NCBI RefSeq assembly: GCF_040183065.1
Contig: NC_091127.1
Location: forward strand, 27,922,391-27,986,390
Source: Periplaneta americana
Lineage: Eukaryota; Arthropoda; Insecta; Blattodea; Blattidae
Length of the DNA stretch: 64,000 nucleotides
Direction: 5' to 3'
Shown here: one piece after another, positions 13,109 through 16,100 of the stretch
Numbering within the stretch: the first letter of the stretch is position 1
How the letters are laid out: every line of letters begins with the position of its first letter
Made by a program: the position numbers and the translations under genes
The notes under the pieces: model-generated
Database searches by the model: none
Seen by the model: only the letters and a program-made list of their open reading frames with translations
What the model was told of the DNA's origin: nothing

Positions 13109-16100
13109 GTATGTTCACGTTTGTTTCCAAAATTATAGCTACAAACATGTTCTTTAAATGTATGTAATTGTTACTCCAAATTACATGAAAATAAACACGA
13201 AAGAAAATAATTTCCTATTTTATTTTCTATATTGTTTTATAGTAGTTATTATGCTATTTTCACGGAATGTCCACAGAAACCATTTGTTCATAAAAGTCAT
13301 GACAAAAATAAATATTACTGATACATAACTTCAATTGAGATCAGAGCAATTATTGTTACTTTCTCATATTATTACACTGCAAAAAATATGTCAAGATTGA
13401 ATAATTTCAAGGAAAAATTGTTCTGGGGCCGGGTATCGATCCCAGGATCCTTCGCTTAGCACGCGAATGCTCTACCGACTGAGCTACCCCAGGAACCATA
13501 CACGACACCGTCACAATTTTTCCTTTATATCCACACAACTCACATGAGCTGACAAGACGCCAGAACTCAACTATGAGTACACTCACATAAGCTGACAAGA
13601 CGCCAGAACTCAACTGGCGTTTTGTCAGCTCATGTGAGTTGTGTAGATATAAAGGAAAAATTGTGACGGTGTCGTGTATGGTTCCTGGGGTAGCTCAGTC
13701 GGTAGAGCATTTGCGTACTAAGCAAAGGGTCCCGGGATCGATACCCGGCCCTGGAAAAATTTTTCCTTGAAATTATTCAAAGCTGCTTTACAGGGAGCTT
13801 CTACCTGAAAGCCAGATTTGCCTAATATGTCAAGATTGTCATGAAAGTACACATTTCAGCATCCTTGACACCAAAAACGTAGTTTTCAGCATGCTTTATG
13901 TCTGTCTGTTAGTGCATAGTAATTTTTTTGTAAGCTAGTCTACGAATTTTATTCCTATTCAGTATCTGCAAGTCTGTCCGGAAATGATGCACATGAAGTA
14001 TAATACATTTTGCTACAAAATTAATGGGCTCATATTTTAAAGAATAATTACAAAATTGCGGTTTAGTTGTAACAATCCTTTTAATGATTTTGTTTCTTAC
14101 ATTACTTTGGGGCCAAACCGATTTTGTTTAACAACGACTTTGGCAAGCCGACAGGGATCGAGCCACTGTTTTGAGGTGTCAGGGTTGCGGTAATATACCC
14201 ATTTTTTATCACATGTGGCAGTTCTCTTGATAAATCTATCATTCATGGGATTAGGGATAACCTGACGAAAGATATCAACTCTGAATAATTTCAAGGGAAA
14301 AATTGTTCTGGAGCCGGGTATCGATCCCAGGACCTCTAGTTGAATGCACCAGCGGTCTACCAATTGAGCTACCTAGGAACTCCACCTGACACCGTCTCAA
14401 TTTTTCCTCATATATCCACACAACTCGAGTGAGCTGACAAGATGCCAAAGACCCACATCGAGTTAACACAAACTGTGTGACTTGGAATTGTGGTTTTCTG
14501 CTAAGCATTATTCAAGTCTGCTTTACAGTGAGCATTACCTGAAAAACTAGATGTGCATGATATCAACTGTTGTTGAGCCTGTCCAGGTGTCAGTTCATGA
14601 AGTGCAGATTTTCTGTATGATTTTCTAGTCGTCTTAATGCAGTGATGTATTGTATATTTTGAAGCACCAAGTTTTTCTGACAACTTACGAATATTTTTGT
14701 TGCTGACAACAACTCAATCATTTATATTCAGGAGAGGATGTCAATCCCACCCCAACCACTCTCTAAGCCAGAACTATCCAATCCCAGTCACAATCTGGAC
14801 GAGACATTCCAGAGGCCTTTAAAATAATGGAATTTACTCAAAAGTGAATTATTTCCGAATGTCAAGGTAGAATTATTTTCCTGCATTTATAATGCATTGC
14901 TGATTCGAACATTCCTGCACTGAATCATTTATCACGTGGAAAGTGGCTTTTTTGTTGTTAAAATGGATTATTACAATATTTTTGCTCTTTTCTAGGACTG
15001 TGCATTTAGGAGCCCAATCAATTAGGAACCATGATTCTGATATAGTAGTTTGTGGTGGGCAGGAAGTAATGAGCCAAGCTCACCACACAATTTTCATAAG
15101 ACAAGGAGTGAATGGACATCAACAGCTGAGTGATTCCATGCTGGAAGATGTCTTGACTGATGCCTTTGTTGGTGTTCACATGGGAATCACCGGTAACTTA
15201 AAAATAACTACTTTCTCATAAAGAAGTAACAAAGTCAGAATAATTATCTCATACTCAATACTAATACTAAATTTAAGTGTGTTGCACAGAGAAAGTGGGA
15301 GAAGAACCAGGTTGCATTCATTGTAAAATGTAACGAGCTTTATGGGTTTAAGTGCATGAGCTGTAAAAATAAGTTCCACATTATCGTTATATTCAACCAC
15401 ACTTATTCCTAAATTAAAATTCAACAGATCTTTCCAAATAGAAATATGCTCTTACATTATTATCGGTAATTCAGTTGACAGAACTACAACACAATCCAAA
15501 GACTGAAGATGATTAACCCAGATAAGACTGACGTCCTATATATAGGACACCGGACGTTTCACACAAATATGTTAATAACAATGACTATGACAGACTAAAT
15601 TTAAGAAAAAAAAAAATTGGAGGCAATTTATAACATATAAGGATTATGGTATCATGATTGCGGACTATGAAAATCTTACACAGCAATGTTAAAGAAATAA
15701 AACGTTCCGTCCTATATATAGGACGTCAGTCTTATCTGAGTTAATATAAACTTTCATAGAGTCAAGTAGGTCTATTATGATACAAAAATAGATCTTCTGC
15801 TGTAATTTTTCTATCAAAGCATACACAAATTTGAAAAAAATTAAGACATGTGCTACTTTAGACATATGTGAAGGATTTGGAGTTACATTTATTTTTTATT
15901 TCTAATAATGGATAAAATTAAAACAAAACCAGGTAGCATAATAGCCTAAAGTGGGAGAACCAGGTTGTATTCATTGAAAATGTAACGAGCTTTATGGGTT
16001 TAAGTACATGAGTTGTAAAAATAAGTTCCACATTATCATTATATTCAACCACACTTATCCCTAAATTAAAATTCAACAGATCTTTCCAAATAGAAATATG

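Follow-up and report, generated by a model that had tools for sequence, protein, structure and literature searches.

Head-to-head tRNA-bearing elements with a one-sided tail in the Periplaneta americana genome, possibly formed by priming on both target strands

We identified four short elements (E1, E1b, E2 and E3; 278–652 bp in whole length) in a 64,000-nucleotide stretch of Periplaneta americana DNA (contig NC_091127.1 of NCBI RefSeq assembly GCF_040183065.1, positions 27,922,391 to 27,986,390 of the forward strand; this whole stretch is referred to as the window, and coordinates are counted from its first letter). The elements form two families, A (E1 and E1b) and B (E2 and E3), with different tRNA-like units, and all four share one geometry: the inverted left arm begins at a fixed point, here called P, a tail is found on the right side only, and a direct repeat encloses the whole; in addition, arms are more alike within elements than between them. 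From this anatomy we infer that the elements are copies, made from RNA, of two non-autonomous, tRNA-bearing retroposon families, whose insertion involved priming on both target strands by the enzyme of a Penelope-like element (PLE) or by a PLE-like enzyme. Taken as a whole chain, this reading falls a little short of an even chance in our judgement; of its parts, the retroposon nature of the elements is very probable, two-strand priming is slightly favoured, and a PLE partner, proposed by analogy, is plausible at somewhat less than even weight.

Anatomy of the four elements

E1 (13400-13823) had been singled out in an earlier note, made from the sequence alone, as a pair of opposed tRNA-like units with RNA polymerase III (Pol III) boxes inside inverted arms, and this description is borne out. 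Its arms (13397-13563 and 13614-13780; left and right arms are denoted by the suffixes L and R) are 167 nt each, 94% complementary and separated by a 50-nt spacer. The left arm proper, in antisense (13400..13563, minus strand), begins at P, with pairing starting at 13397 and thus overlapping the direct repeat, or target-site duplication (TSD), by 3 nt; the right arm, in sense (13614..13780, plus strand), ends at P. Within the arms ARAGORN called a tRNA-Ser gct (13420-13493, minus strand) and a tRNA-Ser act (13682-13757, plus strand), their 5′ ends facing each other; both match Rfam RF00005 (55.2 and 51.4 bits; gathering score 29), and each has an A box at 11/11 positions and a B box at 9/11. 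By repeat comparison, a 35-nt unit of the left side recurs in the centre (13564..13613). What the earlier note did not include is an asymmetry recurring in E1b, E2 and E3: between the end of the right arm at 13780 and the direct repeat lie 43 nt, and this tail (13781..13823, plus strand), placed by junction reading and related to that of E1b by profile search, is present on the right side only. As RNA the whole of E1 folds into one long hairpin with a free tail (-314.8 kcal/mol against a mean of -109.9 for 100 shuffles, z -34). A stem-loop within the tail, seen in this fold, was dropped after a negative shuffle test, in which no tail showed a clear folding advantage over its own shuffles (z -0.90, 0.34, -0.87 and 0.36 for the four).

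E1b lies ~430 bp to the right of E1, is about 80% alike, and lacks the right-hand tRNA-like unit. Its inverted part (14281..14506, minus strand) runs from P through a decayed tRNA-like unit (14306-14378, minus strand; 18 bits in Rfam, below the gathering score) into the upstream stretch, with similarity to E1 stopping near 14475. The sense strand restarts 8 nt before P, so that the sense part (14507..14558, plus strand; junction reading and profile search) consists of those last 8 nt (14507-14514) and a 44-nt tail. The presumed RNA is thereby covered about once, with an 8-nt overlap at P.

In family B the arms were delimited by inverted-repeat search, the intact tRNA-like units by ARAGORN and Rfam, and the tails, again on the right only, by junction reading and profile search. 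E2 comprises a left inverted arm (paired stretch 22489-22635) with centre (22491..22713, minus strand; tRNA-like unit 22524-22595), a right arm (22714..22860, plus strand; tRNA-like unit 22754-22825) and a tail (22861..22904, plus strand), the left arm extending beyond the right one in the upstream direction. E3, which is close to symmetric, comprises a left inverted arm (58084..58353, minus strand) whose tRNA-like unit is broken by deletions and not called by Rfam, a central 30-nt loop (58354..58383), a right arm (58384..58683, plus strand; tRNA-like unit 58579-58650) and a tail (58684..58739, plus strand). The B box scores 10-11/11 in E2L, E2R and E3R and is broken in E3L (best B box 8/11), while an A box at 10-11/11 is found in six arms of the two families.

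Across the two families, in 4/4 elements, the inverted left arm stops at P and only the right side has a tail. Counted from the 3′ end of the right-hand tRNA-like unit, P lies 23 nt (E1), 35 nt (E2) and 33 nt (E3) downstream, and in E1b it is the base matching that of E1, so that P agrees in both members of each family; a few bases are common to target and element there, e.g., TTG in E1 and TGGT in E3. The tails measure 43 (E1), 44 (E1b), 44 (E2) and about 56 nt (E3), after which the direct repeat follows, and their right ends, read directly, show neither poly(A) nor a short tandem repeat or microsatellite in any of the four. Ahead of the tRNA-like unit the right arm has a further 68 nt (E1) or about 195 nt (E3), a part that a transcript from an internal Pol III promoter would miss, and a 5′ end close to the tRNA-like unit, as in SINEs (short interspersed elements; in cockroach it lies some 11 nt ahead of the A box), is not found here. 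All four elements have the tail to the right in the window, an agreement to which we give no weight. A run of T5 or T6 lies closely 3′ of the tRNA-like unit in 7/7 arms; an argument against Pol III built on such internal runs was dropped, since the ordinary SINEs of the window carry internal runs of T4 to T7 too.

The direct repeats were compared with shuffled flanks, mismatches being allowed. The perfect 15-bp repeat that the earlier note had claimed for E1 is present (AATATGTCAAGATTG, 13385-13399 and 13824-13838) and was reached by 0 of 500 shuffles; the corresponding repeats are 10 bp in E1b (GATATCAACT, 14271..14280 and 14559..14568; 4 of 500), 14 bp in E2 (TCTGGCAGAATTTA, 22477..22490 and 22905..22918; 0 of 500) and 16 bp in E3 (58072..58087 and 58740..58755, 14/16 bases the same; 3 of 500). 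Repeats of 10–16 bp thus flank 4/4 elements, as against 0/6 control inverted-repeat pairs, which were hand-picked among the 25 longest of 99 such pairs (86 or more of 500 shuffles, in either mode), and this supports the retroposon-type insertion that the note had proposed. A previous null of random window positions (reached by 121, 130, 158 and 1881 of 4000 for E1, E1b, E2 and E3) was replaced, since tandem repeats had inflated it and the E3 repeat escaped its exact-match rule.

The window is AT-rich (34% GC). E3, E1 and E2 are its three longest inverted-repeat pairs (among 99 of 30 nt or more), and 5/5 Rfam tRNA matches above the gathering score fall inside these three. In a profile search of the window the seven arms and four tails were all recovered inside the four elements; arm matches elsewhere were weak, i.e., 37029-37068 (E 0.0018), 45921-46011 (E 0.0042, in an ordinary SINE), 8352-8398 (E 0.039) and others worse, and tail matches elsewhere had E-values of 1.1 and worse. 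The arm profiles gave no convincing solitary family A or B arm within the window. The first of the weak matches, 37029-37068, is a family B arm-like scrap with a B-box-like stretch, perhaps a decayed copy. The earlier note had also kept in view a chance inverted pair, which finding only single-armed copies, or a want of flanking repeats at other loci, would have indicated; within the window, both arms are present in E2 and E3, each of which lies between flanking repeats. Pattern scans of viral and prokaryotic contig collections for relatives gave 0 matches, which says little given those hosts.

Three ordinary tRNA SINEs in the window (8330-8595, 20518-20775 and 45805-46024) provide a local comparison. 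They start at the tRNA-like part, have A-rich ends and are flanked by repeats with 11/11, 17/20 and 15/17 bases alike, and an inverted arm is present in 0/3; families A and B thus seem to take another route.

Two further observations concern the family A arms themselves. A single arm is roughly self-complementary round the anticodon (13405-13529 and 13648-13772, and more weakly 14293-14408; opposite-strand E-values 2.5e-7, 6.3e-7 and 5.9e-4), a similarity reached by 0, 0 and 53 of 1000 shuffles for E1L, E1R and E1bL, and by 588, 370 and 2 of 1000 for E2L, E2R and E3R in family B; such an arm is perhaps the product of an older round of the same event. The anticodon arm is near-wholly different between E1 (13420-13493, 13682-13757) and E1b (14306-14378), with the A box, T arm and trailer well conserved.

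Age of the arms

A foldback that arose once per family and was then copied unchanged would have arms whose age equals or exceeds that of the split within the family; the observed arms are younger. In family A, E1L and E1R differ at 10 of 167 positions, as against 30 of 164 between E1L and E1bL (Fisher p 0.0006) and 34 of 165 between E1R and E1bL. The contrast is smaller in family B, where identity is 86.6% between E2L and E2R and 88.4% between E3L and E3R, and 80.4–84.3% between elements. Of 13 informative sites in 121 columns of that family, 9 group the arms by element, 2 group them by side and 2 are crossed (p 0.009 against one third; 9 vs 2, p 0.03); upstream of the tRNA-like unit, 22 gapped columns being excluded, 18 sites join E3L with E3R, 4 join E2L with E3R and 1 joins E2L with E3L. 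As the arms are more alike within than between elements, their origin, or their likeness, dates from each insertion or later. On this comparison they would have been either made per insertion from a single-armed template or homogenised later by gene conversion, and we consider it probable that they were made at insertion.

Candidate routes of insertion

We propose that the template would be a single-armed RNA consisting of an upstream stretch, the tRNA-like unit, a short trailer to P and a tail of about 44–56 nt. Both target strands would be cut, 10–16 nt apart, and the 3′ end of one strand would prime reverse transcription at the tail end, that of the other at P; joining of the two complementary DNAs (cDNAs) at their far ends would then give head-to-head arms, a one-sided tail and a single direct repeat around the whole. 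A long tail-end cDNA would yield a tRNA foldback (E1, E2 and E3), and a short one would leave only the tail, as in E1b, where synthesis would have stopped after about 52 nt; the near-single coverage of E1b, with its 8-nt overlap, is what one cDNA begun at P and another begun at the tail end should produce. Of the two origins that the earlier note had weighed, inversion during insertion is favoured, with two-strand priming at two fixed sites fitting better than the plain template switch named there, and the arm comparison speaks against the other, a folded read-through RNA copied as a unit, unless later homogenisation is assumed.

The enzyme would be supplied in trans, most likely by a PLE or something working like one, because a PLE protein does carry out two-strand, two-site priming in vitro. 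In the cited part of the report on it, the purified Poseidon PLE protein of Anolis cleaves and extends both target strands, with cDNA starting at two adjacent internal RNA sites, and the interval between these sites corresponds to an optional 30–40-bp tail of genomic copies (PMC11167929). A Penelope copy of a rotifer is described in which an inverted pLTR (pseudo long terminal repeat) falls 37 bp short of the others, one of the inverted pLTRs has a 31-bp tail and the TSD is 9 bp; TSDs of 8 or 10 bp, or none, are given for other copies, and palindromes at the inverted junction are suggested by the authors as a source of self-priming (PMC3846280). As far as these cited passages go (PMC3846280, PMC11167929), PLEs and our elements share head-to-head inverted repeats, an inverted copy a few dozen bases short, a one-sided tail and a short TSD; as to the two fixed RNA start sites, the start points of our elements agree within each family, but the tail is 43–56 nt vs 30–40 bp. 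Our elements of 278–652 bp differ from PLEs as described there in that no reverse transcriptase or hammerhead is seen in them, the arm holds a tRNA-like unit, and tail and direct repeats are somewhat longer. The likeness suggests that element formation works like PLE insertion; as to class, the elements would be PLE-like in geometry and SINE-like in their tRNA unit.

Several observations weigh against this proposal. No hammerhead was found with Rfam, at E-values up to 5, in the three stretches containing the elements. A loose hammerhead core pattern matched the window 9 times vs 4.6 expected (3 of 100 shuffles reach 9), one match (14262-14300) extending from the left flank of E1b across its direct repeat into its first bases. 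Nor did Pfam matches of ten window reading frames give a GIY-YIG domain or PLE sequence in or near the elements, which are too short to encode a reverse transcriptase, and no autonomous relative came to light. Tails (43–56) and direct repeats (10–16) are longer than the PLE values in the cited passages, and direct repeats of 10–15 bp are normal for cockroach SINEs as there described (PMC9191728). From the cited account, the Anolis enzyme showed no strand difference in start site, which predicts insertions with two tails or with none, unlike the exactly one tail in 4/4 elements. E1R has 6 private bases and E1L 2 in comparison with E1bL (p 0.29), a slight tilt to a shared history of the left arms, and later gene conversion could have made the arms alike. 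The sample is also only four copies, from which the template RNA is inferred.

Retroposition of a single-armed RNA by a long interspersed element (LINE), with the inversion arising through classical twin priming or through hairpin (snap-back) second-strand synthesis from the cDNA end, would account for direct repeats of 10–16 bp, for the few bases common to target and element at P and for the likeness of arms within elements, and the centre of E3, a short stem and a 30-nt loop, is as snap-back would leave it. Inverted insertions of cellular RNAs have been published for L1, and in the cited passages on these twin-primed insertions (L1 and small nuclear RNA chimeras, PMC4476161) the second target strand primes and the inverted part lies between TSDs, a shape that E1b has. 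The elements depart from it in that P is identical in both members of each family and the arm is present twice in 3/4 elements, and their 3′ ends lack poly(A) or a microsatellite, unlike the 3′ ends of the window's three ordinary SINEs. With twin priming, start points should scatter, and the inverted part does not normally become duplicated. We regard a LINE-driven origin as fairly unlikely. A foldback that arose once per family and has since spread as a unit, its two-armed transcript being retroposed, its arms kept alike by gene conversion or copying, and E1b representing an internal deletion, would need no extra assumptions for a fixed P; it is also in keeping with the folding of the whole element into a single long hairpin with a free tail, and with the 6 bases that E1L and E1bL share vs E1R against 2 that E1R and E1bL share vs E1L. 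Without later homogenisation, however, the arms should date back at least to the family split, yet they are younger; moreover, the same design would have to arise twice, and the E1b break sits 8 nt from P. This origin seems to us quite unlikely.

Two explanations without an RNA template of this kind fare worse. Long inverted repeats without coding capacity would suit a foldback DNA transposon moved by a transposase, but the right inverted repeat is not terminal, as a conserved tail separates the arm from the direct repeat in 4/4 elements, and the direct repeats range from 10 to 16 bp in length. About 7–11 bp is usual for known foldback and Mutator-like elements, and we consider this origin very improbable. 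That two SINEs inserted independently in opposite orientation, adjacent by chance, is conceivable in a window with many repeats, but one direct repeat surrounds each pair, the left arm has no tail and the arrangement recurs in two families, which leaves this explanation with a vanishingly small chance.

Related systems, other window features and implications

Other small elements resemble families A and B in part. Metazoan retrozymes are described as small elements that may rely on PLEs (PMC7761336, PMC8969392) and are alike in being small, non-coding and SINE-like with a proposed PLE dependence; as presented in the cited passages they contain hammerhead ribozymes, usually as multiple tandem copies, unlike the tRNA-like units in inverted arms, with no hammerhead detected, found here. 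Nine cockroach tRNA SINEs, Sbg1-9, have TSDs of 10–15 bp, and the cited part of their description mentions no inverted arm (PMC9191728). They share with our elements a tRNA-like unit with A and B boxes and a variable TSD of similar length; in that description, however, their 5′ end lies 11 bp ahead of the A box, and poly(A) or short tandem repeats mostly form the 3′ end, whereas the elements here have 68 to about 195 nt of arm upstream of the tRNA, plus the inverted arm. Head-to-head tRNA gene pairs have been reported in a survey that treats them as gene clusters (PMC2888827); opposed tRNA genes close together are common to both, and foldback arms, tail and direct repeats go unmentioned in the cited part of the survey. 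Among the matches listed in the open-access literature there was no report of head-to-head tRNA retroposons with a one-sided tail.

Other features were noted in the rest of the window. Ten of its reading frames were searched against Pfam, with matches to reverse transcriptase, RNase H, DUF659 and 5′-nucleotidase. Two copies in opposite orientation (26834-27859 and 33459-34797), 95–96% alike, contain open frames of mariner-like appearance. A 541-codon open frame at 50206-51831 (minus strand) has a 5′-nucleotidase domain (PF05761) and is intronless in that stretch, and is perhaps a retrocopy or one large exon. Tandem arrays occur at 6103-7795, 9354-10393, 15741-16800 and 38485-39252, with units of about 112, 140, 424 and 93 bp, respectively, and an array of 41-bp units containing GGTTAGGTTAGGT lies at 47750-47902.

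How PLE insertion is completed is still open, and according to the cited part of the Anolis report further steps need validation (PMC11167929). Short elements with a fixed two-site signature, such as those described here, would record two-strand priming in a simple, natural form and would serve as a natural reporter of the enzyme. With regard to the class of element, SINEs are generally held to depend on LINEs. We speculate, while placing it on the unlikely side, that families A and B are tRNA-bearing, SINE-like families that rely on a Penelope-type reverse transcriptase in place of a LINE, and that two-site priming of both cut strands creates a fresh head-to-head tRNA palindrome at each insertion. 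If this is true, long hairpin RNA would be readily available from each full insertion; such insertions would seed palindromes and hairpin RNA in the genome, and tRNA annotation would count their paired units as tRNA genes.
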